Source: Pocillopora verrucosa (Eukaryota > Cnidaria > Anthozoa > Scleractinia > Pocilloporidae). Taken from it: a stretch of DNA of 64,000 nt. The DNA lies in contig NC_089317.1 in NCBI RefSeq assembly GCF_036669915.1, positions 581,001 to 645,000 on the forward strand, given 5' to 3'. Positions 3,248-64,000 of this stretch are shown here, piece after piece. The notes under the pieces were generated by a model. It searched no databases. It had not been told where the DNA came from and was given only the letters and a program-made list of their open reading frames with translations. Positions within the stretch are counted from its first letter, which is position 1. Each line of letters opens with the position of its first letter. The position numbers and the translations under genes are program-made.

Positions 3248-6200
3248 GTAAAGTACTCTTTTTTTGTAAATGAATCTATTTCAATTATTGTCAAAAATAT
3301 TCCTTGCCATTGATAGTGCCATTCCCCATTGTCTATTCCCCCCCCCCCCCCCCCACTTGCCCCACCCCCATATCCATTTGTACCCCAGGGTGTAGACTAC
3401 AGGATACAACTTTAGGACCTCGGCTGAGGCTCGACCCAGATCTTCTCGCCGGGGTCTAAGTAACCGAACTGCAAAATCTTATAAACTTTAACGATCAGGA
3501 TTAGCATGTATTTGAGTGATTTTTTTCCTGCTTTTTGTCACCGTTCCAGGACACCGGAATATTGTTTCCGCCGTGATCAAGGGAATCCACAATACTTCAA
3601 AAATGAATCATGGCAGACGACTAACCTCGGGGAACTTCTTCAGCAAATGCTGCAGTGCTACGATTCACGAGTTAGAGTTGAACACGGAGGAAGTAAGTAG
3701 CGATACTGGAACAAATGTCACAGGTCTAATCTTGGGATCAACCACTCCTTGCTTCTTTTTGATATATACACAACAATACGCACGGACTATAATTTTGTTC
3801 CCAGGTCTCGCGCTTATCCTTTTTTAAGTTAGAGATCTGGGTACCAGATGTAAACCACGGTTATGAATTCGGTTATGAGTGACGATATCAACATGCAATG
3901 CGACAAGAGGAAAACAAACTATGCCAATTTTATAAGCAAGACAACCACGCCATTTGAGGGCTAACCAACTTTTTGCGTTTCAGTAAAAACTGTGTTGACT
4001 GGTTTTTGTTTCAGGAGGGAATCCTACAGAAGTCCATGTCAGCATGTACATTTTGTCCATTGGGAATTTCCAAGTTCGCGATATGGTGAGAGGAGAAATA
4101 TAGTGAAGTTTTCACAAAAAATAAAGCTCTCTAAAATTTATCACACCCTCCTAACTAACAGTATAAACAGAGAGGAAACGATTACCATTACTTTGACTAA
4201 ATCTTTTTCCCTAATATTTCAGGATTTCCAACTGTCGTTTTACTTCAGACAACAATGGCAGGATGCTCGGTTAGCTTATAAGAACCATTTCCACGAAGAA
4301 AAAATTACTTTGGGAGGAGCAATCCTAAAACAACTTTGGCTTCCACAGACCTATTTTGTCAACAAAAAGGGGGCCAGCGCAAGTACAGATGCCAATTTTT
4401 TTGTGCGAATTTTTCCCGATGGATCCGTACTTGTGATCACTAAGTATGTGGAAAAAGACTTTCGTCTAAACTTAGCAGGGGTCAAATTGGTTTTGTTTTA
4501 CTTATTTTTGTGATTTCTTAAGGAAAACCGCGCCCAACTAGATTGAGAACTTAAACCGCGTTTTAAGCCTTCTTGAGTTTACAAAAAAGGAAGAAATTAC
4601 TTCATGAAAAACAATTACCATCATTATTATTTTTATCATCATCATTTTTATTACTATTATAAAACTGGTGATTCCAGTAGATCCTGCCGATCGTTTCCGA
4701 AAATCATCGACGTACTGTCGAAGATTATCTTTAATAATCCGAATACTTTTTGGGATCTTCGAACATTTGAAGAATAAATGGGCTCCATTTTTTTTTTCTT
4801 ATAAGAAATACTCTGACAATGGACTGCTACATGGATTTAAGAAACTTCCCGTTTGATGTCCAGAAGTGCAACTTGACTTTGGAGAGCTGTAAGTTTACAA
4901 TTCATAACTTTATATGCTAAGACCAATTCCCATTTCCTACCTTATTGGGGCATTTGTCAGTGAAGTGTCGAGAGTGATCTGGGATTGCATTGGTATTGGA
5001 AGTCACTCGGTGATTGGTCCAGAAAACTCACGCCGCTCTTTCAACCAATCAGATGCAAGGCTAAAACCATTCATTACTTGTTCGCCTGCGTTTCCAGCGC
5101 TTAAGACAGTTGCTTGTTTTTACTTCCAGTTCTTATTGACTCTTGAGGGCATCTTCCTTTTCTTCTAATTGGCTGATTACCCCACTCAATCGAAAAGCGC
5201 TATACTTATACTATACTTATCAATTTCTATTCATTTCTTTTCTCAAAAGTTGGATTTACCATTAAAGATGTGGTTTATAAATGGGTTTCGACGGACAGCA
5301 GCGAAGCAGTGGAAAAGGATCCAGGGCTTACAACATCAGAGTTTGATATTGGTCCTATAAGAATATTCGAATCCACTACGATGTATAAAACAGGTAAGAC
5401 ATTGTTGAAGGCCAGTAATTTCTACTCACTAACTTCCATTATCAATCTACTGTGTACGTAAAAGAACATGTTTTTAAAGGTTAGGTGACCGATTTTCAGT
5501 TAATCTCTTTATATTTGCGCACAGAATACACAAAATATACACAAGATCTACACAAGATCATAAAAACCACCCCCAACCCCCAACCAGTGAAAAGCTGCCT
5601 TCCTTATAGGCTTGTTTTCATTCAGAATGCTATGTTCGTTTTAGGGCTGTTTTCTGGTCTAAAAATGGAATTGAATTTCCAACGAAGATCTATTTATTAC
5701 TTGATTCAAATCTACGTGCCAAGTGCGATGATCGTGGTTCTTTCGTGGGTGAGTAATGCTCTAAAAGTTGAATATCCTCAGCCTGACCATATTTTTCTGG
5801 CTTCTGACTTGTTCTGGGAGAGAAAAGAGGACTCCTCTTTTCTCTTCCAGGAGGAGGGGGAGGTGATGTTGACAAGAGGGCAGTATTGGTACCTTTTTTT
5901 CTTAGGATGGGAAGGGAAGCGGGAGGAGTTTTAGCGTGGGAACTTAATGAAGATGAGCAAGAGTGCTGAATAGATAACTTATAGTTCACACGGTATTCGA
6001 GATGACCACCAAAGAGCCTTCACCAAATGATGCCGAAATTTCGAAATTATCAGTTCGCACTGCCAAAAATGATCGGAAAAGGGTAATTCTAATCTAAATG
6101 ATAATATCATTATTATTATTACTATTATTATTATTATTGTTACCATTGTTATCATTATTATTATCAGATCTCCTTCTGGATTGACAACCAGTCGATTCCC

Positions 6201-7187
6201 GCCAGAACGGCGCTTGGCATTACCACTGTGCTCGCCATGACAACACTGCTATTTGGTGTCCAGTCTTCTCTGCCCAGTGTGCCGTATATCAAAGCTGTAG
6301 ATCTGTTTATGATTGTATCATTTGCTGCTGTCTTCGTTGCACTGGTGGAGTTTGCGGTTGTTAATTATACAAGCATGCGTGAGAAGGAACAAAAGGAATC
6401 AAGAGCCACGAAAAATAAGTATACTGTGGTAAGTCGTTATCTTCCATTCACGAGCATGAAATACTATGGCATGATGGATAAAAGTGCTACCAAGAGAATA
6501 TATCCTCTGGGTGGTACTCATGGTGCCATGAGATTCCATCCCACAAAGGTGTGATACTTGTTCTCCCATAAGTTTCATCATTTCCCGCTCTTTTCACCGG
6601 GCGCAGTACGCCAGTTTTCCCAGCTGTAAGTTTAGATGCACGTGGTAGCAGTTAAATGATTTCCTGCCAGTTATTCGCGTTACCTGCAGATAAAAGATTT
6701 TCGTTAAGTTTGTGAAGGGTCACACTCCCTTTCTCCCTAAAAATTGTTAAAATTTTATTTATATATTTTTCCGTTTCGAAACGTGATTGAACTTTTACCT
6801 CCACAATAGAACCCAGACGTTGTTATGCTAAACTTCCGCAATTTGTCTTACGAGGACGACGGAAAAGGTGAACATCATATGCAAAATGGCGTCGCCCACA
6901 ACGGTACTGGGAATGATATTGAGAACGACAACGATGATGTTCACAAGATGGAAGAACTACACAGTAACGGTACCATTGGTGAACACGCGCCACGTGATCG
7001 CAAAGATTCGTCGCGTGATCTGTCGCATGTCTTTGAAACTTCTCGCCCGAACAAGTGTCGCTGGCGATGTAAAGTTACAGCCAATGGAATAGACGCTTGG
7101 TCACGTATTCTGTTTCCTTTGGCGTACGGACTTTTCATTGTAGCTTACTGGATTATTTATTCAGCAAATACGGAGAAAAGTTCCTGA
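3150..7187 (+). CDS. Cys-loop ligand-gated chloride channel subunit (GABA-A/glycine receptor type), complete, 9 coding exons
   Basis: Exons: 3150-3247, 3550-3692, 4018-4085 (acceptor could be 4015), 4223-4443, 4806-4888, 5250-5393, 5645-5748, 6168-6428, 6810-7187. They join in frame to 499 residues. Exon 1 holds the ATG and a hydrophobic signal peptide. The ligand-binding domain follows, with the family-defining Cys-loop: two cysteines 13 residues apart (CYMDLRNFPFDVQKC) in exon 5. Exon 7 carries M1 (YYLIQIYVPSAMIVVLSW). Exon 8 carries M2, beginning PARTALGITTVLAMTT, then M3. The last exon has an acidic, Asn/Asp-rich cytoplasmic loop and M4 (ILFPLAYGLFIVAYW). The Pro-Ala-Arg motif before M2 is the known signature of anion selectivity in this family. 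The ligand cannot be named from sequence. The protein would act as one of five subunits in the plasma membrane. Confidence 0.93.
4960..5202. mobile_element. Non-autonomous DNA element with CCAAT boxes (copy 1 of 4)
   Basis: It lies in an intron of the Cys-loop receptor. It shares with 8503-8745, 10829-11041 and 50521-50737 an end resembling AGTGTCGAAAG and an opposite end CACTCAATCGAAAAGCGC. The interior shows CTxxGTGATTGGTCCAGAAAACTC, a CAACCAATCAGATGC segment and TTTCCxGCGCTT. The internal ATTGG/CCAAT words are in both orientations. No coding potential is seen. Confidence 0.65.
6099..6165. repeat. (ATT)n microsatellite directly before a receptor exon
   Basis: Imperfect ATT/TTA repeats run up to the splice acceptor TTATCAG at 6161-6167 of the M2-M3 exon, replacing a typical pyrimidine tract. 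A similar imperfect ATT tract lies at about 4617-4660. Confidence 0.8.
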
Positions 7188-12521: not shown

Positions 12522-15500
12522 CTGCAAGAGAACACGGAGAATAAAACTTATTGTGTCAAGAGCGAAGAAAAACTTTCTCTCTTTGTATCTTAATTATAAA
12601 TCAACACTGGGAAATAACTCAATCAATCTAGAGCTCTTAAATTATATTTGAAGACATTTTATCCGTGTTATTTTGCAGAAGAAAAAGAACTGTCAAAATG
12701 AAGCGAAATAGATTTAGCTTTCCTAAAAATACTCTGCTCAAACAAAGTGAAATGCAAGTTTCAATAACACTAGGAAGCGCACGTTGAATCTCTCTTACCA
12801 TAACAGCACAAACAAACAAGTATACCACTGAACACGAGCGTTTGCATATTGCGCATGTCCCACCATGATTCAATCCGGGATATGCTGTCCATGGACCAAT
12901 CATAACACAGGCTGTTCGGACACAGTAGAAGTCGCGCATTTAGCGCGCACAAATAAGAGTAAGTCCTAAATCGAGTCCATACGTCAGGATGAAACAATGT
13001 GGGATTGTCGGACTCAGTGAAGGAAAGGACAAAACCTCCAGAGATGATCACAATTCTCAAGTACAGAAGAATTACAGACGCCAAGCCGAGGATGGAAAAT
13101 CTTTCGACCAATCGAACGGCCCACTTTGGCCATTGTCTGAAAGTAAAGGAAAATTAACCCTGATAAGTACAGTCTTTTGGAGCGCATATCGTTTCATTGT
13201 TGTAACAACTAACATCCAATCAGAGGAAAGGTAAATATCACAAGTGGCAAGGAGATCGCAAAGTAAACAAGAAAATTGCCAGAAGTGCGGGAAAAACGTC
13301 GCAAATGAAATCCGTTTTATATCTTACTGGATTGAAGGATGCGTATTGATACACGAAGTCATCGGTATTAAAAACCTACAAAATTGTGATTCGATTCTTA
13401 CCTTAATAAAACCGCAGGCGAAGAAAATAATTTGAGTAAATGTTCCCCTTTAAACTTGCAGACAAAAACCAAATCGTAAGCAATACAAACTTCTAAAACT
13501 GTGATGCCTTGTTCTTTGCTAAAGAGAGACAACACACACCAGAAGATGCACGAAGCAAGCCAAACCCTTGAATACTTCGCTGGTCTTTTATTGCTGTCCC
13601 TGTGGTCCCATCAGGAAAACAATTTATGTACGACAACAGGGCTAAGAGGTAGAACAAGGCACAGAGGATTTCTGCACGACCCACAACATTAGCTACAGCC
13701 TCTGTATGTATCGGATGAAGAGCAAAGAGCATACCACAAAGAAGAGGAAGTGATTTAGTTTTAGAACCTACGTTGCCATTTAAAATCCTGATACATGTGT
13801 GGAAAAATAACGCCGAGACAATGCTATGTAAAACCACATTGATGAAGTGGTATCCTATTGGATTGAGGCCTCCAGCGAGGAAATTCCAGCGGAATGTTAA
13901 AACAGTTATTGGACGATAAGATTTGTGAGAATCGTTTCTTTTTAACGGAATGCCCCAAAAGTCGTTTGAAAACAGGTTAGAAATTGGCGTTGATGGCCTG
14001 CAAAGAAAAAAATTACTCTAGTCAGAAATAAGGTGAAAGCGAGGGGCTATACGTTTTCAAGCGTATATCAAAATGACATCTTCCAGATAAATTAATACAT
14101 CTCACCGGTATTTTTTTCTCGTTGACACGACATGAAAGGCAATATTGTTATTCATAATCGCAGAGAGCTTAGGGGAAATTTCACTTGAAAGATGGTTTTC
14201 AAGAGGAAGTTTGTTGACTGAATTTGTGAACCAGCTTTCGAAAGTCAGTATGACAATGTTTGCGAGGTATTTGTCTTCCAAATTTCTCCCCAAAAACGAC
14301 ACTTTCCAATAACAAAGACGATGGCCAACGACTAAAAGTCAGTTATCGTGAAATTTAAGTCATTTCTGTGTTTTGCCGACCTCTCAATTAATTGCTTTGT
14401 TTTTTTCGCATTTTTACGCAGTTTCGTGACTTTCAGTGAACCCTCGAGCCTCTTACCGAAAGATAAACAAGAAATTCGACCTAACAGGTCATTTAGAAAC
14501 CTCTGTGTCGGAAATCTATTTTTGTAATGTCAGATTAGTCAATTTAAGGCAAAATTTTCCCATCCGTTTGATCTCGGAAACAGCTCATTTGAGCTTAGTG
14601 CTTCACAGCTCTATTCTGTGAGCTAAAAGCTGAATTCGATCACAGAACTTCTTGCTAAACTCTCTTCTAAAAATGAACTTTGATTAATTTCCTTTCTTAC
14701 ATGACAAAAATTTGCATTTCATTTTGTTATTATTAATTTTGCATGCGGTCTTTAACTCAAAGTTAAATTATGCTAAGTAGATATAGACATATTTTTATTC
14801 CGTAAGCCATGGGCAAGCAGTTGTTTCTCGTCAAGTTTGTGGACTTGCTGTTACTTTTGGAAACCTTGCATTTCACATAGTTCTAATTTCGTCAATCCGC
14901 TCTCAATCTGATATTATGTTATACTATTGAGTGACCGCAAATTAATGGTGTCAAAAGTTGTTTGTTAGGAAACCCTTTTTACATACCCGGCAGAAGGATA
15001 TCAACCTGGTTTTCTTGAATCGACCGCGCAGTATTAATTCCATGATAAAAAATTTACATCTAAATGAATCCTCTTCATCACAACAGAATCTGGTTTAATA
15101 AACACGGTGGGATTATCGAAAAGAATGGCTCAGTTAAGCTGGTGGGAAAGTGCGCCTCGAGGCGAAATTAATTTAAGCCGTATGATACAAAGCTATGTTT
15201 TTTGTCGGTTCAGCTTTCAACACCATCAAAAGTTTTCCCCGCACGAGAAGCTGGGTTTTTCTTTAACCACTTTTTACCCAGTTAGAAATGTGCCTTTATC
15301 TCGGAAGGTAAAGTTATCACTTTTGGTAAACAACGAGATTAAAATTGCAGGAAAACTCTTACCTAACATCTGCGTTTGTCTCGATGACTTCGAAGTCATC
15401 ATAAACAAACTCGCCGAATAAGGAGTTCAAGTAACACGCAATTGCCGCGATTGCTACCAAAATGTATGGTTTTAAAGCACTGGTGTCATTCGATAAATCC

Positions 15501-24800: not shown

Positions 24801-27800
24801 GTGTTAAGACACAAATAGGATGTAATTTGCAACAGGTAATCGAGAAAAAAAAGAGTAGTATTGCGCATGCGTCCCATGTCTCACTCGTGCGGCCTCTCGT
24901 GCGTGGTCACGTGAAGCGTGTGCCATGCGAGGTAACAAGGAACTCACGTGTTCTTCGAGTGCCTTGAATGGAGGTCACCCAAAAGTAATATTGCTCTTAA
25001 CTTAACTCAGTAAATCACACATGACAGGACGGAAAAACGCGTGGACTGTAAGTACCTCCCGTTGTCCCATACAAAGCCTTAGAAAACTTTTCTAAGGCTT
25101 TGTATGGAACAACGGGAGGTACTTACAGTGCATGCATTATCCGTCCTGTCATGCAGGAGATTATAAACAGTTCATAATCTCTTGAGCACAATTACCATTA
25201 GACTAATTAACTATACAAATACATGTAATCTCTACATCTTATTTCTTTTTATTTTTATTCTTTATTAGCTTTTATCATATATAGTCCTAAATTTTTTTTC
25301 AGCTGGGCAAACACTTATGTCATGAGCACGGGAGACCACTTCCTGTTTATGTGATGTTAAATAAATTATCCTATCCTACCTTATCTTGTATTCATGGCTT
25401 GTTCAATTTATTTTCTGTAGTCTTCGGTTAACTTTGTAACTAGCTGTTTTCCATAAGCCACGTGTCTCAAGATCTAGATGTACAGTTAATTCCCTCTAAA
25501 TCTTACTGTCTTTTTTTTTCCCGCAGGTTACATAGGTTCAATGGGATTGGGTATGAACTTCTTCTTTGGGCCATTAACCAGCACACTTTGTGATCGATTT
25601 GGTTGTAAAATCGTGGCTATTGCTGGCGGAATCGTTTCAGTTATTGCTATGGTTGCGACGTCATTTGTCAGTAGCCCCGTTCCCATTTATATCACCTACA
25701 GTGTTACGTGGGGACTGGGGTCGAGCATGAGTTACGTGCCAACATTCCTCATTTTAGACAGATACTTTGAACATCGGAAATCCTTGGCACATGGGATCGT
25801 TACTGCGGGGAGCTCAGTCGGTGCTCTAGTTATTGGTCCGACAATCAACGTACTCGTAGAAAGTGTTGGGTGGCGACATACTATGAGAGTCCTAGGGGCG
25901 CTGGCTTGCGTGATGATTGTCGCAGCCTTCTCTTACAGAGCGCCTCCTGTGAAGAGCAAGATGTATAAAGGCGAGGAAAAAGTCATTGATTTAGCTGTGT
26001 GGAAAAACAAGGGTTTTGTTGTATGGGCACTGGCACTTGGTATATTCAACTTAGGATACTTTATACCTTTCGTATATTTGGTGAGTTGACTATTCTCTCC
26101 CCTTGTCTCGTTTTTTTTTTCTTTGCTTGAACGTTTAAAAATTTAGCAGGGGAGGGGTGGTGGGGGTTGTGAGGCAGTTAAAAGCTGACCTCCTTTGCTC
26201 AAAATGCGCAAGTTGAGCCCAATACCTGGGAAAATACGGCAATTACTGAACCAGGAACGTTTGGTTTTCATTTGATGGCATTACGTTGGTCCTCAAGCAG
26301 AGCTGTTAGAGAGCTGCTACTTTTCGGTCACAATGCGCTTTAAAGTAGATATAAGTGTTATTGGGTGGGTAGATGTGCGAGTGGAAGCCTCGCTAACAGG
26401 CTTAAATAAATCTTAATTGAGCGAGAGGTTGTGAACATTTTATTGGGGATAACGTGTTGTCACGGGAAACGGCAAAGGCGCAGCTCAAGGGTTTTATACG
26501 AGACGTTTGCTCTACTGTTGCATTACCCGTCTCTTTTGCCCTAAAATGTTTTTTTAAAATCATTTAAAATAGCAAATTGCAGCAAAGAAAACCTCACTGA
26601 AATGTTTAATATTATTTTTTCTCGACTCACAGCCTACACACGCGACTTATCATGAGATACCACAATCAAAGGCTTCCTTCCTCATTGGTTTCCTTTCGGT
26701 TGGCTCGTTGGCTGGTCGGCTTCTCTTCGGCCATGTCTCGGATTACCGATGTGTCAATCGAATGTACCTATACCAATCAGCATTTCTGATAATGGCTGTC
26801 ACGACAACGCTGTGTCCATTGGCCACAAATTATGGCGGACTTGTCCTTTTTACAATTTTATTTGGGATTTTTGACGGGGTGGTTGTGACTTTGACTCCGG
26901 TTATCACGGGAGATATCGTCGGTAGCAACAAGCTATCATCAGCTCTCGGTTTCCTCTATTTGGTTTTCTCGATACCTCTAATGACAGGCTCACTTATAGC
27001 AGGTACGTTTCTCCTCTAAAATGTTTACATGTCTTGGTTCGATGCACAGGGCACCCAGTGTGCAAATTTCATTCTGTTAATTTGTGGGCTTTTAATTTTC
27101 AACAATAAGGACAGTTTTGAAAGTGATGCCATTACACCAAAACCTCAGTCCATTCTTCGAAGAAAAGGTTAAAGCTTCACTAGACATTTCAATGATGACC
27201 TACATGAATAGGATTAGAATTCCAACCGTCGATAAATGCTCTGTCCTTGGACGCTCCTAGAATCGTAAAACGTTTGCCCATGGAAGGCTTAGTGTGGATT
27301 GTAAAATGGCTTGTTACCCCTTTATGTGAGAAAAATTTTCATGAATGAAATTTTCAGGTAAAAATGGTTTGCTTTTTGATTAAACAAAAAGTAATGACAG
27401 TCGTCAGCGATACTTGTCAAAGGCCTGGCTGGAGTAATTCCGTGATAAATAATTTACGCTACTTTTAGCTTTTATTTTAAACTCTTTTATGTCTTTCATG
27501 GAAAATCTTGCAAGTTTATGTTTTTGATTTATTTTTATTTTTCTAGGCTTTCTTAGTGAGATCACAAGTACATACAATGAAGCCTTTTTCTTCTCGGGCG
27601 GCATGATAGCTGTGTGCGCATGCATCCTGTCACTAGTCCCAGTTTTAACTCCGATGAGACAACATGGAGTTACGGAGATTAAAATGAGGTCAAACAGCTT
27701 CCTGGAGAAGAAGGAAATACCACTATTTGTTGAAACACATGTTTTTTTAGAAGGAGATCCATCTCAAATTGCGTACTACTCGCAGTTTTTAAAGAAAGAG

Positions 27801-52985: not shown

Positions 52986-54189
52986 TGGCTACCAAGGTGT
53001 TTGGGACTATTTTACGGTTCGCAATCACGAGAACCAAAGAGACGGTTAATTAACGGAGTTTTATTGTCGATGGAAACCAGAATACTACAAGCTAAAACAA
53101 CCAAGTGGCTAAAAGCGACCGTAAACTGAAATAATACGGTGAATTCCTATCAATCGAGGCGAAAACTTCCGAAATATAAGATAAAAGCTTGTAAAACAAA
53201 TCTAACTTAATTACAACTCAAAATCGCGATAAAAATATAAAAGGCAAAAAAAACTACGTTCAAAGAGTCACGCAAACAGTCAATAGCCCAAGCGTTGTCA
53301 AACTAAAAGTTGGGCATTCAGTCGTAAACGCCAGGCGTGATTTTCGCCACTTATCACAAAGCAATTAAAAAGGTACACAGTCCAATAGTCTTTGTCTAAT
53401 CAAAATAAAAGAAAACTAAGCCTTAGTAAAATAAAAGAATAAACTTACATATCGGTCCCACTTGCGCCAAAGGTTACAAAGGGAGCAAAGGTCAAGATCC
53501 TTAGAATTACTTAATAAACTGAAGAAAGGACGCCAAGGTCGTCTTTTATATGCGCGTGGGACGCAAAAAGGGCTCTAAAGGGTCGGGTTTCAAGAACAAT
53601 AGATAGGCAAATTAACATTGTAACTAGGATCGTAAATAAGAAAAAAAAGGTTATCAAGGTAGTTACTAATCAATAAAATCAGTTAGTATCCTTAACACAC
53701 TCCGTCACTCCTCTCTTCGGTGAGTGCGCTGACCAGCGCATAAGCATTTCGCATGTCCAGTTCCTAGGTAAGGCTCAACTAATAGCTGAGAATCGGTCAA
53801 ACTTTAACAGACTGCTGATAAAAACGAACGCGTATTTAACTGACTGCTGAGATCTGAGAGCAGTAAATTTCACTGATGGATGAAAAATTGGCTGAAATTA
53901 AGACTATGTGGATTTGGTTTGCGCTCTTATTGGGCATTTGACGCGCTCTGATAAAAAATACTGTTTGAGGCCAATGAGCCGTCGCGCATTTTAGTGTTTT
54001 TAGGACTTCTCTTTTAAACTTAACGATCCAGAATTTGAATATTCATCGGAGAAGTAGTTGTGGTCAATGGATTCACACAGAACGCCTTGGTTTCTCTGCA
54101 CCATTCAAAGTTTAAATAAAGGCGGAGTGACGGAGCATGCGCATTTATCAACATAGGGTAGTCGCCTACAGTGGACATAACTGACGCAA

Positions 54190-54268
54190 AGACCCCCCCC
54201 CCCTACACACACACGCACACGCACACGCACACGCACACGCACACGCACCCACACACACACACACACCA
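54190..54268. repeat. Poly-C and (AC/ACGC)n microsatellite
   Basis: About 12 C residues followed by alternating CACACG and CACA units. It lies about 200 bp past the 3' end of the beta-helix gene. Confidence 0.9.
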
Positions 54269-54470: not shown

Positions 54471-57400
54471 CTAACACTCATCTCCACCCTGGGCGGACGA
54501 CTGTACGTCATACTTTTGTTCAGAAATGAACCATCTTGCTCGAGTAGCTTTCCATAAGATGATCACCTCCTGCACAAATTTCGAAAGCAAGGCCAAGAAG
54601 AGGGATATTAAGGAAACAATAGGTATAAAACTCAGTAATACTGCCTCTGACGTCAAAAGAATGGACAAATACGGTTGACTGATACCGCTGACGTCACTTC
54701 TTGCCGGTGCAAGGCCTACGTTTAGTATTCCTATAACGACCAAGGTTGCCAAGGAGACGATTTCGGTGACGTTGACCCAAGAGTGGGCGAAGGGCTTGCA
54801 GTATATGTGATGCAACAAGTAGGCGAGGCAAAAGATCGTCAGACACACAGAACGTATAAGCGCATGTTCCAACTGCCACCAACCAATCGCAATAAGGAGG
54901 AATCGACGACCAATTAGAACGCTCTCCCAGTAGATCCTTCCGTTTGATTGGTCATCTTGTGGCTTTGTAAATGGACGGCATAGAACCTCGAGAAGTGACG
55001 CTTTGATACTTGTGGAAGAATTTGTGTCGGTAGTTAAAGGGATTTTTTGATAGTCCGCTCTCTTGGTTACTTTTTCCTTTACGTGGTCATACAAAACAAA
55101 GGAAAGATAAGGAAAAGGTAGGATGCAGGCCAGTAGAAATATCTTCCCTGAAATCTTGCCACGATAGAGTTGCAGCGAGGCGAAATACAACGTGAGTATA
55201 AACGGAATCAAGTTCAGGGCAATGACGACAAAAGCAGCTTGCTGCCACCATTGGTTCCAGCAAACGTACTGGGCATCGTAATACCAGCGGTACTCTTTTT
55301 GAATTCTTACGCAGTGGAATAATCGCACTATTGTGCCAGTCACTACTGAGTAACCTAGCAACACTATTTCCAGGACAACTCCAAGGTAAGGACCAGCTGG
55401 CGGAAAAGTAGGCCTGCGCTTGCGTAATTTGTTTAGACCGCTGTGCAGAAGGTAAAGAACTGGAATCCAGAAGAAAATGGTCATCACTGTCACCAAGTCG
55501 AACACTGTTTTTGAAAGTGGTGTGAAAATTGGCCAAGGACAGATCTTCCAGTTAGTATTGGCGTATGGTTTTAAGTTAAAAAGATTAGTAAAGGGCAAGA
55601 CAATCTTATTTCGCAATAGATTTTTGACCCCATATGATGGCACGATCAAAACTCCAGCCACTTGATAAAAGTAAAAGATAATCTTTAAACAGCCATAGTT
55701 TGGAGAGACACTTTCTCTGACCGTGCTGTTTAGGCTGCAAATAACTTGGTCATTTTCCTCTGTGCGTCTCGGAATGAACCATGTTAATTGTTTTCCCACC
55801 CACTCAAACACTGGGGGTTTTCCAACGAGATACAAGGCAAACAAGAACGTGAGTGCCAAAAAAACAACCAAATACCAACTACGGGTACAGTCTTTCGCTC
55901 GAACACACTCTGTTGTAAACAAACCTTCCGTGAAATTTTGTTTACATTGTCCGCAAAGAATACCTGTCCTGTTGCCTTGGCAACCGGAATGCAGATAGCT
56001 ATTGTTGTCATAAAAACATTTGTTATCAACAGATGGCAAGCAGCAGTAACCTTCTGGACAAAGCTTAAATATAACAGTGTCGTTGTTTACAGGATAACCC
56101 CAAAAGTTGGGTTGAGCAGCGAGAGAAGATGAACAGTTGCCGCCAACAGGACAAGGAAAGCAATTCACGAGTTCCTTGACTCTGTAGCCACTCTGTATGC
56201 CTCTACGGATACTGTAAGTTCCCACAGGACAACGCTGAGTACTGAACCAAACCGATACTCTGGTCACTTGTTTACGATAAATAAATTCTGGTGTGAGACG
56301 TTGCATATTAAGCTTGGTGTTGATTGGGGATTCAATTAGCACAGAGCCGTCCAAGATATCCGGAGCCACTCCTTCGATAGCAACGATAACTTTGCTGTCT
56401 ACGCTGAAAGGTTCCAAAATAAAGGAGCTGTTACGAATTTCGACCTTTTCAGATTGAGTTACTGTCAAAAATCCATTGAATGTCACCACATCTTTGAACT
56501 GTCCTCCTCCAGTATAAACCACGAGAGATTCCACTGACTGATTAAAGGTGATATTCCACATTGTCAAACTGCCTGAACAACTCTCTATGTTTATATGTGA
56601 GCTAACCACCCCTCCAAAGTTATCTATAAAATGACAGTTCTGAATTTCAATGGCGTTAACGTTCATTAGCGTAAGGATGCTTTCTTTGTCTCCAGAGTTG
56701 TTACGAAATTCAGTGTTGTTGATGATCGTCTGTAATTGAGCAATGGATTTGCCGGGTCGCGATGGAACAATATTTATTACTCCCGAAGAGCCGAAATTGT
56801 TTAGGAATGTGCTCTGTTCCAAGTGAAATGAGCAATTGTTATTCGAGGCCGTTAAAAAAATACAGCCCCATCCATAACCATGGCAGTTATTGTTCACAAA
56901 TGAAACGTTTTTTAAGTGGTACACCGGTTGGAATGCCTGCTCAAAAATTTCGATCGACATTGCAAAGTCAATATTTTCACTTATAAAGGTGTCCTCCATA
57001 AGAAAACTCACATTGCCACGAAAATGTTGCCCATACGATGTCAAGTCTACTGATATCCCACCGCCGGAATTTTTTTGTATTTTACATGAGCGTAACACGA
57101 CGTAGCTATTGCCAGGATGAATCACAATGTCAGACTTGACATCTCTAGTGAAAGAATTGTTTACGTCAGCACTATTACTAATAAATGTCAGGTTTTGTAA
57201 AGTTACTCGTGGCTGGGATGAAACAGAAAAGGTTATTTCAAGGGTGCTGGTACCCTTCGTGGCCCAATTACGGAGAAATTCACTACTCAGAATTTCCACG
57301 TCCGAATACAGATAGTCTACCTCAGCATAAATGGCTCCGCTAGCCTTTCCTTCCGCTTGGTTATCTGTGAAAGTGTCATTGACTATTGATAAGTTACCCA

Positions 57401-58684
57401 TGTGTTTCACGTACAGACCTACTGCGCCACCTCCACAAACAAGATCCCCACAAGTATCCATCAACAGTTTATTACCTATGAACTCTGAGCCATGAATACA
57501 TATCCAGTCAGAGTAATCGAGTCGTTTAGAGAAACTTCCCACAGCTACAGCTCCACCTGAAAACCTTCCTTCGTTTCGCACAAACCGACAGTTCTTTATG
57601 TCCACTAAAAGCGACCGCAATATGTTGACAAATGCGCATGCTCCGCCACTTCCACCTTTGTTCGAATTGAACTTTGAACCGTGCAGGGAAACCATGGCGC
57701 CATGTGTGAATCCATCGACTAAAACTGCTCCTCCATTGCTTTCATCGTAGTCCCACTCAGGTTTTATTCTGGAATAAGGTATTCCATTCCCAGAAAAAAT
57801 CGATGTTTCGATTTTCAGGTCAACCGAGTCGCCATTATGGATTTTGACTGCTCTACCTGTATTTTCTAGAAATTGTGTCGACTTGAAATCAGTGTAGCCG
57901 TTTGAAAAGCCATGAACGTCCAAGATATTTACTTCAGCCACGTTGCTTTCAAAAAGTACTCTCTCCATAACGAGAACCAAATCAGTTCCGTTTATGCCAG
58001 CAAAAACTCGAAAGCATGCTTTACCTGAACAGATATTCTGTAACACTCTTAGATCAGTAAAATTAGCTTTGATACTGCTCTGATTTGCATGTAAGTTTTG
58101 AATAGAAATGTTAAGTATGGCGTCTCCTTCACTGCGTATCTTATTGCTGACGAATGTAGAATTTAAAACGTTCAAATCAAGGGAAGAATTTCCATAAATT
58201 GTAACACCACTGGCACTGTTGTTCTGAAAGGTGCATCCATTCAGTTGAACATTTCTCATCAGAGAATATTCATAATATTTCAAGGTGAGTGTAGGAACAG
58301 AGCTGTTTTTGAAGCTGCAGGCGACCACGTTTAAAGAACATTCAAAGAGATGAATTGAAGTGTTAACGAAGGTGATTTCTTCTAAAATGACCCCTCGAGA
58401 AGCCATGCCGCAAAAAAACCGAAATCCATTCCTCCTACAAGAAATAAATGCTCGACTATTGTAGCTACGCAGAACTAAACCAGCTAGATCCAATCCTTTC
58501 TCGTTTTGGCACGGATAAGGGTCACGTGATGTTCCTGTGCCGTCTATATTTATTATATCACCTTCACTTGCATGCACAGTAACTTGCTGAAGAGTTTTAC
58601 ATGGCGATGAGGTATTGAGCCCGCAGTTATTTTTAAAGGTCCCATCGTATCTTGAGACAAACCACTGCTTGGCATGGATAGTTT
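54471..58684 (-). CDS. Large beta-helix / cysteine-rich / multi-pass membrane protein, one giant exon, 5' exon not found
   Basis: The open exon runs from an acceptor (TTTATTAG) at 58685 to the stop at 54471, about 1,400 residues. The N-terminus should continue in an upstream exon; the frame reads through 58577, so no start is chosen. Residues 1-760 (counted from 58577) are short beta-strand repeats with many Asn, Ser and N-glycosylation sites. They carry glycine motifs NGGAVLVDG, GSGGACAF, FSGGAVAVG and CGGGAV, like polymorphic-membrane-protein/right-handed beta-helix repeats. Residues 780-895 are a Cys-rich linker (CPVGTYS, CFPCPVGGNC, ILCGQC). From about 897 to 1330 there are nine or ten hydrophobic helices, with WYLVVFLALTFLFALYL the first. 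The layout suggests a surface receptor or channel with a large ectodomain. I do not know its function. Confidence 0.85.
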
Positions 58685-58926
58685 CTAATAAATAAGAACA
58701 ATATGAATAAATAGAGATTATGGTTTAAACTGTATTTTTCAAGGATGTCCACCCTAGAGAAAAGACGTAACTATACACGTCTAAAATAACGATGCCTTTT
58801 TCTTGTGTTTGATATTGCCAATCAACTGCAGACACGTCACTTGCCCTTTGCGCCACTCTGTCAGGTTGATGAATGAATGACAGAGTGTTCACCAAAAATT
58901 AAGTCAACTTTTCTTGTCAATAATGA

Positions 58927-59117
58927 AGAAATGTAAAATGGTTTCCGTGTTTACATAGCCTGATGTAAACACGTGAGAGGTTGGGAGAACACGAGATAAG
59001 CGTAGGAAACCAAGACGCGAAGCGGAGTGGTTTCCAGCGTATCGAGTGTTCTCCCAACCTCCCAAGTGTTTACATCAGGCTATGTAAACACGGAAACTAT
59101 TTTACATTTCTTTTATA
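58927..59117. mobile_element. Long hairpin MITE with AAATGTAAAATGGTTTCCGT ends
   Basis: The left arm runs ATGGTTTCCGTGTTTACATA GCCTGATGTAAACAC, then GAGAGGTTGGGAGAACAC. The right arm is its reverse complement, ending AAACACGGAAACTATTTTAC. The loop is about 50 bp. A half copy of the arm sits at 61555-61590. Confidence 0.8.
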
Positions 59118-60949
59118 AAATAACTAATGAAAGAGGAACGAAAACCGTGTTTACATACGCTCATGTAAAATGGTTTTATGGCCAATCAGAGCGCGCGTAC
59201 TATTTGAATTATTTTTGTGACGATAGGTTTTCGCTCTCTAACTGGAAAACTGAATCTTCGCGGACGGCACAATAACAACTGGGGGAAATAACTCTGTAGA
59301 GACGACTTGGCAGCGAGAACGGAAACTCGTCACGATTTCCTGGTACACGGAGATCTGCTTCGGGCGAGTATACGGACGTCAAGGATAAGACAATCTTGGT
59401 TCCACAGTACTTTTATTCTAGGTCAGGCCAACAAGCGACATGACCTCTAGCATACTCTAGTTTGTAATCATCAAAGCTGTACAAGGTACTTGCTTAAGAA
59501 GTAACTGGTGTGAAGTGCTACTGTTACACAAATCGCAATATTTGAATAAGGACACAAAGGAGCGGAAAAAAGTCTCTTTGAAGTTAGACGAAAACTACTT
59601 AAATATTCCATCTGTTTCTACGACGGAAAGAATCTCAAAATCAAAAAGACGGATGCAATAAACTCTCGGCCATTAACGTAGGAAACTTAGGTGCGATTTG
59701 ACAGCTCTGATATAGAAAACAATACCTATCTTAATTGCAGTAGCGCAGCTCAGGAAATAAAAACGGAAAAGCAATTCGGGAAAAATCAGTAAATTTTAAT
59801 TCCCGTAACATTTTATAAAGGCCTATATTGCTTATATAACAAGATTATGATTATTTTAACAAGAAGAGCGCTAACTAAGGCGGAAAGTAAAATAGAAAAT
59901 GGCAACTTTCCGACTACCGTCATGTTGTTTAACGCGACTGTCTTTGAAATGAAAATTAACAAACCCACGCCACGCAACGTCACGCAATTTGTTACAGATT
60001 AGCTGTCAAACGATTGGTGCAGGAGAAGACCGTACCTTCTATTTGTCACTTGCCATGTGGCTATTCTGACCGTTTGAGAGATCACGAGACTGCCTTGTGA
60101 CACACGACAAGTTTCATTAGGAAAGTCCCTCCACTTCCTGTCTTCGTTAAAGCTGACACAATCAACGGTGGATGTCAAATTGTCAAAAAACTTACCCTCC
60201 CTGTCGTTAAAAATGTTAGACCAACTCTCCACAAAAAGCTATGCTTCTGCAATTTTCACCCAACTTCAAAAATTTGACTTTTGCCGAATGCAAACATACT
60301 CGTGGAAATTGCTAATATAAGTTGTTTTTTTCCTGTAGAATCATCTTTCCCCCTGATTACAAAAGGAAACTACCACAGCTGAATATTTTAATTCTAAGAG
60401 AGATTGTTTCCCTTAAAGTAAAAATAACTCAATCTAATTGTGCAAGAATCAAATTGAGAGGCGCAAACTACAACCTTGCCACTTATTTTATAGTAGTTTT
60501 AGTAGTCGAGGAGCAGTGTTTATTTAAGTCAACAACAGGGATCTACCGAGGGATGTACAGTTTGAAAAAAAAATCAGTGAAAACAAGGCTTCCTACGAGC
60601 CTTTCAGCTTCTGGTAAAGACAGTTTAGCCAAACCTTATCGACGCTACCGGATAGGGTATCTTTGCATCAGTAAGAGGCTAAGTTTAAAGGCGATATGTT
60701 TTTTAGATATCATTGCAAAGCATAAAGATATTTCACATACCTCCCGAACATATTCCACTCCAAAGGAAAATACAAAAAAACGATGTTAGCTCCATTATGT
60801 GAGCCGGCAAGACATCAAGAGAACACTGATTAACTATTTTTAACGGCTGCTTTTCAAAGACAAGATTCGCGCAATATTTTGAGATTCATCATTGGAAAGT
60901 CACGAGACATACAGGTGAAAAAATTATTTTGTCAGAATATGCAAATTTG

Positions 60950-61786: not shown

Positions 61787-64000
61787 TCAGGCGAGCAAAA
61801 AGACGACCAAACTATGGTATGGAGAAAATGAATAGCGGACTGGAAGAGGTTTGCGGCAACAAACTTGAGCTTTGGCCTGGTCTCCTATCAACCGTACTGG
61901 AAGCTTCTTGTGCCTCTGAGCCTCATCATTATAGTGATCCTTAATCACAGAAGCTAAATACCCCAACCCACAACCAAGTTCACCAAAATCTTCCTTATGG
62001 TTACTTGACAGTGCATTGCCCAGGTCACATACAAACTTTTGGTTAGAGGCATTAACAAAATCAACCCTAGTAAATCGTTCTCCAGCACCATCATTATGTG
62101 AAACATAAACTTGTGATTTTCTATTCCCATTACCATTTCCTTGATCAGCTCTACTTTCTACAGCTGAGGCACTTAATATATCAATAAATTTGGTAAAAAC
62201 ACCTCTTTGTGCTGCTACCCCGTATATGATATTTAACACATGTTGCCATGCATTAATTTCACAGTGGATAGGCTCCGGGTGCTGCTGCTCTGCAAAAATT
62301 CCAATTTGGGGGGTGCCTAACTGGTGAATCCCATCCTCTGCCATGAACTGTAGTTTTTCTAGAATGGCGATTTCTTTCACTCAGGGAAGATGGCAGGGAA
62401 ATCATAAACTCATTTACCCTCTTAACATGGGAATTTCTGACCTCCAGAGTATAAGGTTTGAATAAATCTTCCTCCCCCATCCCAATAGTGGCACCCATAG
62501 TACACATATTTCCTTTGCTTACGTTAGCATAAGGAGATGGGTAAGTGGCAGCTTGATTTAACTCATTGTTAGCCCAGCTTTGCCAGCTCATATCAGCACT
62601 GGGCTGAAACTCTACAGTACACTGCTTGTTAGAAACAACAAATACATTACCCTCTAACATTTCCATTTCATCAGTGTGTTGCTTCCAAATTTATGTTGTC
62701 ATCAAACCAAATTAGCTTACAGAATAAATAGGGAAGTCTAAGGTGCAGATCAATTATCATAAAAACCAACCCAGTTATTGTTCTGGAAACACCCGGTGCA
62801 TTGGGAATTTGATTAACATGACCAATGTCAAGACTTCTCACAAAATTCTCCACCTGTTTGTCAGAAATAGCTTTATTTGGCACCCTTAAGTCCAAACCTA
62901 AACATTTTATGTTACGGGGTTCCCTTAGATCAGAGTTTGGATCAAAAACTGAGGACTGAGTTTTGCAGACAAGGGCATACTTTCTGCAAGACAGAAAGTT
63001 CTGGTACTTCATAAAAACAGCTTGTTTCAAAGCCTCATCGGAATTTTGATACCCTTTCATTGTCTTGTCAAACAGACCCTGGAGATATTTCCCTCGTTTA
63101 AGTCCAGAAATCAGCTTGTCCATGGTTTGATTGTCAGCGGTAGATGAAATATAATCCCAAGCCCCATATATTGACCCTTCTTTTCCCCCATGAATAAATT
63201 CTAATACATTTTTTGTCTCCTGTCTTCATCTGTACTTAGTGCTGGAATTGACATTTGTAATCATATCATAAGTTGTACTGGCATTTTTTCTCCTAGCTAC
63301 TGAAAAGCCTTTTTGTTCAAGCAGAGATTTAAATTTGTGATATTGCTCATTTAATTGTGTTACTTTTTCCTCTTGTTGCTTTACTTGATCTTCCTTTTCT
63401 TCCACACTCTTTTGAAGGCTTTGTAGCTCTTCTTCTACTGCATCTTTCTGAGCAACAGAAGTTTGTATTTGTCCCTCTTAAAAAAAAACAAAAAAAACAA
63501 ACAGAGAAATTAGATCTCAACATTTTTTGTAATCACATGTGTTTCACGATACGCGAACTTCCGGTGTTCGCCATAGTTTCCGGTTTGTATAAACTGTCAA
63601 TCAAATAAACGTGGTGTAGCTTTTCTCAAAATGGCGTGTTCACTGTGAAACACAAACAACATGTAAATAAAATACTAAAGGAACAGAATGTTGTACATAC
63701 ATAACTTAATTTTCCGTTCGAACTTCAGAGTAGCATGGTGGTAAAAATGAAATCTTTTGCACGTTTCGCAAACACTCAAAGTTATAATATTACCATATTC
63801 ATCCAGCCGAGCCTTTTTCGCTTCAATGTCCTGTGATAACCTTTTGTTTTGTTCTTGTAACTCTCCTTTTCTTTTCAAAGCTACATGTGAAGATGAACTC
63901 TTCGTGAAAAGTTCTTCTAGAATCACTGCGTCCTTGGTGAGAATTAGGCTTACTACATTTTCTGCTTTTTCCGCACAGAGGTTTTCGACTGCAAAGTGAG
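61787..64000 (-). pseudogene. Decayed multi-exon coiled-coil gene, probably mobile-element-derived, cut by the window edge
   Basis: On the minus strand the reading enters from beyond 64000. A coiled coil (KGELQEQNKRLSQDIEAKKA) splices at 63794 to an acceptor at 63476, where DEYEGQIQTSVAQKD continues the frame. It goes on through EEELQSLQKSVEEKEDQVKQ and ARRKNASTTYD. An in-frame TGA stands at 63226-63228. The same frame continues through MDKLISGLKRGKYLQGL. Frame shifts occur near 62675 and near 62380, each joining sensible protein in a new frame (TDEMEMLEGNVFVV; KEIAILEKLQFMAEDGIHQL). The last part has EPIHCEINAWQHVL and ends at 61787. I do not recognise a catalytic domain. Multiple breaks argue for a dead copy. 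Confidence 0.7.

Follow-up and report, generated by a model that had tools for sequence, protein, structure and literature searches.

A giant-exon coral gene predicted to join a Pmp-type beta-helix to a cysteine-rich stalk and a multi-pass membrane domain

A single giant exon lies on the minus strand of the window, the 64,000-nucleotide stretch of Pocillopora verrucosa contig NC_089317.1 that was analysed. Its translation joins a region of Pmp-type beta-helix coils to a cysteine-rich linker and a hydrophobic multi-pass domain. With moderate confidence, we read it as part of a multi-exon animal gene that would encode a multi-pass surface protein of the plasma membrane, with the beta-helix outside the cell, a Cys-rich stalk, and a membrane module serving as channel or transducer. 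Judged from the sequence, the most likely role would be that of a recognition or adhesion receptor at the plasma membrane with a channel or transducer module. The coordinates of all features are collected in Table 1. Elsewhere in the window, Pfam identified pieces of ordinary animal genes, which are listed at the end of the table.

Table 1 Features of the giant-exon locus and of the rest of the window
Feature	Position	Strand	Basis
Candidate exon 1, signal peptide, 18 residues and first base of a split codon	60741-60795	-	Relaxed scan
Presumed intron 1, 2056 bp	58685-60740	-	Between predicted donor and acceptor
Giant exon 2, coding through stop codon 54471-54473	54471-58684	-	Open frame and acceptor
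Predicted extracellular beta-helix region, Pmp-type coils, ORF residues 20-821	56262-58667	-	Pfam Beta_helix; motif statistics
Cys-rich linker, ORF residues 822-949	55878-56261	-	13 Cys; sub-threshold Pfam matches
Predicted multi-pass membrane domain, nine or ten hydrophobic segments, ORF residues 950-1385	54570-55877	-	Hydropathy
Short C-terminal tail	54474-54569	-	Translation
Decayed paralogue or copy fragment of the coil region, ORF residues ~331-376	54048-54180	+	blastn, tblastn
TMTC O-mannosyltransferase piece (PF08409)	12773-13153	-	Pfam
Neurotransmitter-gated channel pieces (PF02932)	6105-6551, 6810-7184	+	Pfam; second piece below cut-off
MFS transporter pieces (PF07690)	25490-26086, 26573-27016	+	Pfam

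The minus strand carries a single open frame from 54474 to 58724, 1417 codons from stop to stop, a run with a chance of about 2e-42 per start at the base composition of the window. GC content by codon position is almost flat (0.442, 0.391 and 0.423), which we count against the main reading. A splice-acceptor-like site, tattcatattgttcttatttattag, consisting of a T-rich tract with TTATTAG at its end, immediately precedes 58684, and the end that the first-pass annotation had given to the exon is the first base past this site. Since the earliest in-frame ATG of the giant exon is residue 107, an upstream exon is needed, and the giant exon is probably only part of the gene. The earlier description of one uninterrupted 4.2-kb exon therefore fits the exon itself, whereas the gene is probably interrupted, as a signal-peptide exon is predicted upstream.

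That exon was sought in the 5.3 kb upstream of the giant exon as an ATG, a hydrophobic core and a phase-1 donor. A strict scan of this stretch gave zero candidates, and a relaxed scan of the same 5.3 kb gave 60741-60795 as the sole one. Read from 60795 to 60741, the candidate is MELTSFFCIFLWSGICSG; its donor, GAG/GTATGT, is in phase 1 and matches the phase of the giant exon. Joined to exon 2, it yields a precursor of 1422 residues whose signal peptide looks normal. When the upstream stretch was simulated 100 times with a Markov model, the relaxed rule gave 0.45 candidates on average and one or more in 37 simulations; an equally strong candidate appeared in one simulation. Counted across the entire window on both strands, such candidates number 22 by the relaxed rule and 8 at equal strength, 60741-60795 included. 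Because the simulations and the window counts also yield such candidates, we grade exon 1 as plausible and unproven; it could be a chance find. Within the presumed intron lies a foldback repeat (58926-59112) with 76-nt arms that are 92% complementary and 35 nt apart, possibly a MITE-like element. Several open stretches are found on the same strand upstream of the gene, at 61790-63999; three of them were scanned against Pfam, with nothing better than E 0.17.

About 290 bp beyond the stop codon, 133 bp of the plus strand (54048-54180) resemble the coil region (blastn, 109/139 identical, E 2e-26), with gaps that break the frame. The tblastn alignment of the same fragment to the coil region (E 2e-7) contains two stops. 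A duplicate of at least that stretch must therefore once have existed, and recent family expansion, one of the origins first suggested for the exon, gains slight support from this one decayed fragment. A CA-type microsatellite (about 54200-54266) adjoins it.

Retroposition, another of these suggested origins, is unsupported because the exon has a splice acceptor and a predicted, possibly chance, first exon: it begins at the acceptor-like site, its first ATG comes only at residue 107, and the candidate signal-peptide exon lies about 2.06 kb upstream. A retrocopied or decaying gene, that is, a pseudogene whose 5' end is lost, would fit the lack of an ATG ahead of residue 107, the similar decayed fragment about 290 bp past the stop, the fact that neither AATAAA nor ATTAAA lies within 1.4 kb of the stop, and an exon 1 candidate that may be chance. 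It would nevertheless have to accommodate 1417 stop-free codons and a splice acceptor of good quality just where the frame requires it, together with a fitting candidate signal-peptide exon, and no poly-A tract was seen in the 270 bases past the stop. We consider such a pseudogene very unlikely.

The N-terminal region of the frame carries the beta-helix assignment. Pfam Beta_helix (PF13229; cut-off 25.9 bits) matched an 807-residue N-terminal piece with 33.9 bits (E 3.1e-8) and the whole frame with 29.9 bits. When the N-terminal region was cut in three, Beta_helix was below cut-off in two pieces, at 20.9 and 18.4 bits (E 0.0003 and 0.0017), and one of these also matched a pectin-lyase-like family (E 0.0033). 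The middle piece (residues 331-524), which holds the canonical GGA motifs, matched CBM_X2 alone (E 0.021). Motif counts were compared with shuffled sequences: the 17 FxxN motifs compare with a shuffle mean of 4.7 and the eight GG-type motifs with one of 1.06, and neither count was equalled in any of 20000 shuffles. The coil rule given for chlamydial Pmps in PMC11166332, GGA[ILV]-x(14,18)-FxxN, is matched exactly at residues 331 and 432, a count reached in none of 5000 shuffles. A relaxed rule, which tolerates a single change in GGA[ILV] or a gap of 12-23 and, unlike the rule of PMC11166332, keeps FxxN invariant, is matched at six places (residues 290, 331, 360, 390, 432 and 462; again none of 5000 shuffles). 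Of the roughly 760 residues of beta-helix repeats that had been claimed, the motifs and the PF13229 match bear out the character but not the full extent, as the motifs are confined to residues ~160-710, plus a lone FxxN at residue 30, and the flanks are less regular.

In its repeated FxxN and GGA[ILV] motifs and in their published order and spacing along the coil, the region resembles the passenger domain of chlamydial Pmps (PMC11166332). Unlike these proteins, the coral protein is unmatched by the Pfam Chlam_PMP repeat (PF02415), for which the whole frame and its pieces gave no match at E ≤ 10 in a HMMER search whose filters may drop short repeats. According to PMC11166332, PF02415 is present in almost 200 non-bacterial proteins, and the Pmp HMM built in that study is almost exclusive to Chlamydia, a point that we count against the main reading. 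A second difference is that neither a C-terminal autotransporter beta-barrel nor a middle domain is in evidence. No autotransporter model of Pfam was matched; instead, a Cys-rich stalk leads into a multi-pass hydrophobic domain, the C-terminal third consisting of nine or ten hydrophobic segments of helix length. The Pmp-like proteins of trichomonads provide a eukaryotic parallel, as they too are surface proteins with N-terminal Pmp motifs and a C-terminal membrane anchor (PMC6701047). Their C-terminal transmembrane domain is often single in that account, whereas the coral protein has nine or ten segments and a Cys-rich linker.

An AlphaFold model of the beta-helix region, made from the single sequence without an alignment, was mostly beta and poor (pLDDT 39.2). 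Foldseek with this model gave 84 matches, none at E ≤ 0.001; among the 50 of the 84 that were listed, many titles read as beta-helix or solenoid proteins, again none of them at E ≤ 0.001. The membrane part, also modelled without an alignment, reached a pLDDT of 43.4, too poor for fold assignment, and Foldseek returned 111 matches, none at E ≤ 0.001. Neither model supports a fold assignment.

The Cys-rich linker was confirmed, with 13 cysteines within residues 832-946. Its first half shows a sub-threshold likeness to the stalks of the Ephrin_rec_like family (PF07699; E 0.044, 14 bits against a cut-off of 23.1), and its second half a similar one to DUF7630 (E 0.031, 14.9 bits, cut-off 27). When the linker was searched whole, DUF7630 dropped to E 6.4-6.5 and Ephrin_rec_like was absent from the list. 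We treat both matches as leads, short of assignments.

Beyond residue 950, nine segments exceed the threshold of a 19-residue hydropathy scan, and a tenth (1263-1281) was added by eye; the earlier count of nine or ten membrane helices is upheld in this sense. The helices of the low-confidence AlphaFold model roughly coincide with the hydropathy segments, and the model has a helix at the tenth as well. With loop boundaries set by hand, a topology in which all ten segments cross leaves 12 positive loop charges inside and 21 outside, and this positive-inside count contradicts ten crossings. With a non-crossing segment among 1-6, the inside receives 20-25 of the 33 charges and the outside 8-13; with one among 7-10, the figures are 15-16 inside and 17-18 outside. 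The charge counts thus favour nine crossings with the tail inside, the putative non-crossing segment being among the first six. The frame contains 30 N-x-S/T sites, and 27 of the 30 precede the first membrane segment.

A role as surface receptor or channel, as first proposed, is plausible on these features. One specific form of it, which we regard as possible though doubtful, is a beta-helix-bearing ion channel whose membrane part would be diverged from a TRP/polycystin-like or fungal Flc-like channel and gated by tension or ligand acting on the beta-helix. A large, Cys-stalked extracellular domain ahead of a membrane part of nine or ten segments fits such a channel, as do the 20-25 of 33 positive loop charges that would lie inside with a non-crossing segment among 1-6, and the layout resembles that of Flc/TRP proteins. 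Against it, Pfam searches of the membrane part, whole and in halves, matched no channel model and gave nothing better than E 0.28. A PDB sequence search was empty at E ≤ 10, and the poor model of the membrane part found no Foldseek match at E ≤ 0.001.

More distant still is an adhesion-GPCR-like receptor that would signal via G proteins. Its extracellular domain looks adhesive and its membrane part is multi-pass; however, the hydrophobic segments number nine or ten rather than seven, and the 7TM and GAIN models of Pfam were unmatched in the whole frame and its pieces. Similar proteins with Pmp-like, Cys-rich and multi-pass parts are filed as 'G protein-coupled receptor-related' under PANTHER PTHR11319, a label for which a full-text literature search gave no paper. 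A term search of a choanoflagellate GPCR survey (2025) likewise gave no hit for beta-helix, pectin lyase or Pmp (PMC12716839). An adhesion GPCR is accordingly improbable in our view.

Returning to the preferred reading of a beta-helix surface protein with a channel or transducer module, many unnamed proteins of similar domain order occur in cnidarians, sponges, choanoflagellates and several protist groups; the architecture, first described as unusual for an animal, would thus be common in cnidarians. We take the linker motif NRTGxLCGxC to be typical of such Pmp-like, Cys-rich, multi-pass proteins. Because these presumed relatives share its domain order, the gene most likely belongs to an existing but uncharacterised eukaryotic family, as one of many relatives. 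Among the matches listed in a search of full-text literature that holds few subscription papers, no title or abstract start concerned an animal Pmp-like multi-pass protein, though such papers may exist.

One point in favour of whole-gene horizontal transfer from a bacterium or a protist is that Chlamydia is the best-known source of Pmp-type coils. The Pmps of trichomonads have likewise been attributed to transfer (PMC6701047). Relatives of the linker and membrane half were sought in viral and prokaryotic contigs with a single-protein query, whose reach is limited to close relatives. Viral contigs gave zero relatives, and prokaryotic contigs gave three pattern-matched stretches and no relative. 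The whole protein had zero matches in phages at E ≤ 1; its one plasmid match, to the coils alone, had E 0.2 and came from a Methanosphaera plasmid recorded in two versions. NCBIfam and PHROGs profile searches gave zero matches. Degenerate DNA patterns of the linker motif were found in 8 + 2 viral stretches and in one stretch of a prokaryotic genome; all 11 were taken as chance because the surrounding frames are short (15-85 residues) and tblastn gave nothing better than E 0.45. PDB sequence matches to lectins, a zinc finger and netrin (E 0.56-1.7) were also taken as chance.

The lack of relatives in the prokaryotic, viral and phage scans, at the reach of close relatives, argues against recent whole-gene transfer from the sampled prokaryotes. 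The predicted intron has a eukaryotic look, as has the ephrin-receptor-like linker. Transfer, the remaining origin put forward in the first-pass annotation, finds no backing as far as bacteria are concerned, as the linker and membrane half showed no close prokaryotic or viral relatives, the whole protein had no phage match, and the plasmid match is confined to the coils at E 0.2. We give whole-gene transfer very little credence; an older transfer of the coils, or a transfer from a protist, may have occurred.

For the surface protein that we favour, the following working is proposed. The gene would have two or more exons, and the N-terminus of its product would lie outside the cell. A cleaved signal peptide, encoded by the predicted first exon, would direct to the cell exterior a long right-handed beta-helix, N-glycosylatable and built from coils of the Chlamydia Pmp type, a placing suggested by the signal peptide together with the N-x-S/T sites ahead of the first membrane segment. 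A disulfide-rich, ephrin-receptor-like stalk would connect the beta-helix to the membrane domain and keep it clear of the membrane; with nine or possibly ten crossings, the membrane domain would transmit or anchor. The beta-helix may serve as a recognition or adhesion arm that contacts glycans, microbes or neighbouring cells. The membrane module, acting as an ion channel or transducer, may relay this contact. Since Pmps are tied to adhesion in Chlamydia and in trichomonads (PMC6701047), a role in recognition or adhesion naturally suggests itself. In Chlamydia, the motif residues of Pmps face the core of the helix (PMC11166332); the motifs would therefore be structural, and any binding would take place via the side loops. 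A bolder version, in which the gene represents an animal class of surface receptors whose bacterial-adhesin-like beta-helix directly drives a channel or transducer of novel fold and recognises microbes or self, we hold to be rather unlikely.

Pmp-type beta-helices have been studied as adhesins of bacteria and parasites. An apparently intact animal gene that combines a Pmp-type beta-helix with a multi-pass domain points to a family of surface receptors annotated without a function. If the membrane part were a channel or transducer, contact sensing by a beta-helix would become testable in animals.
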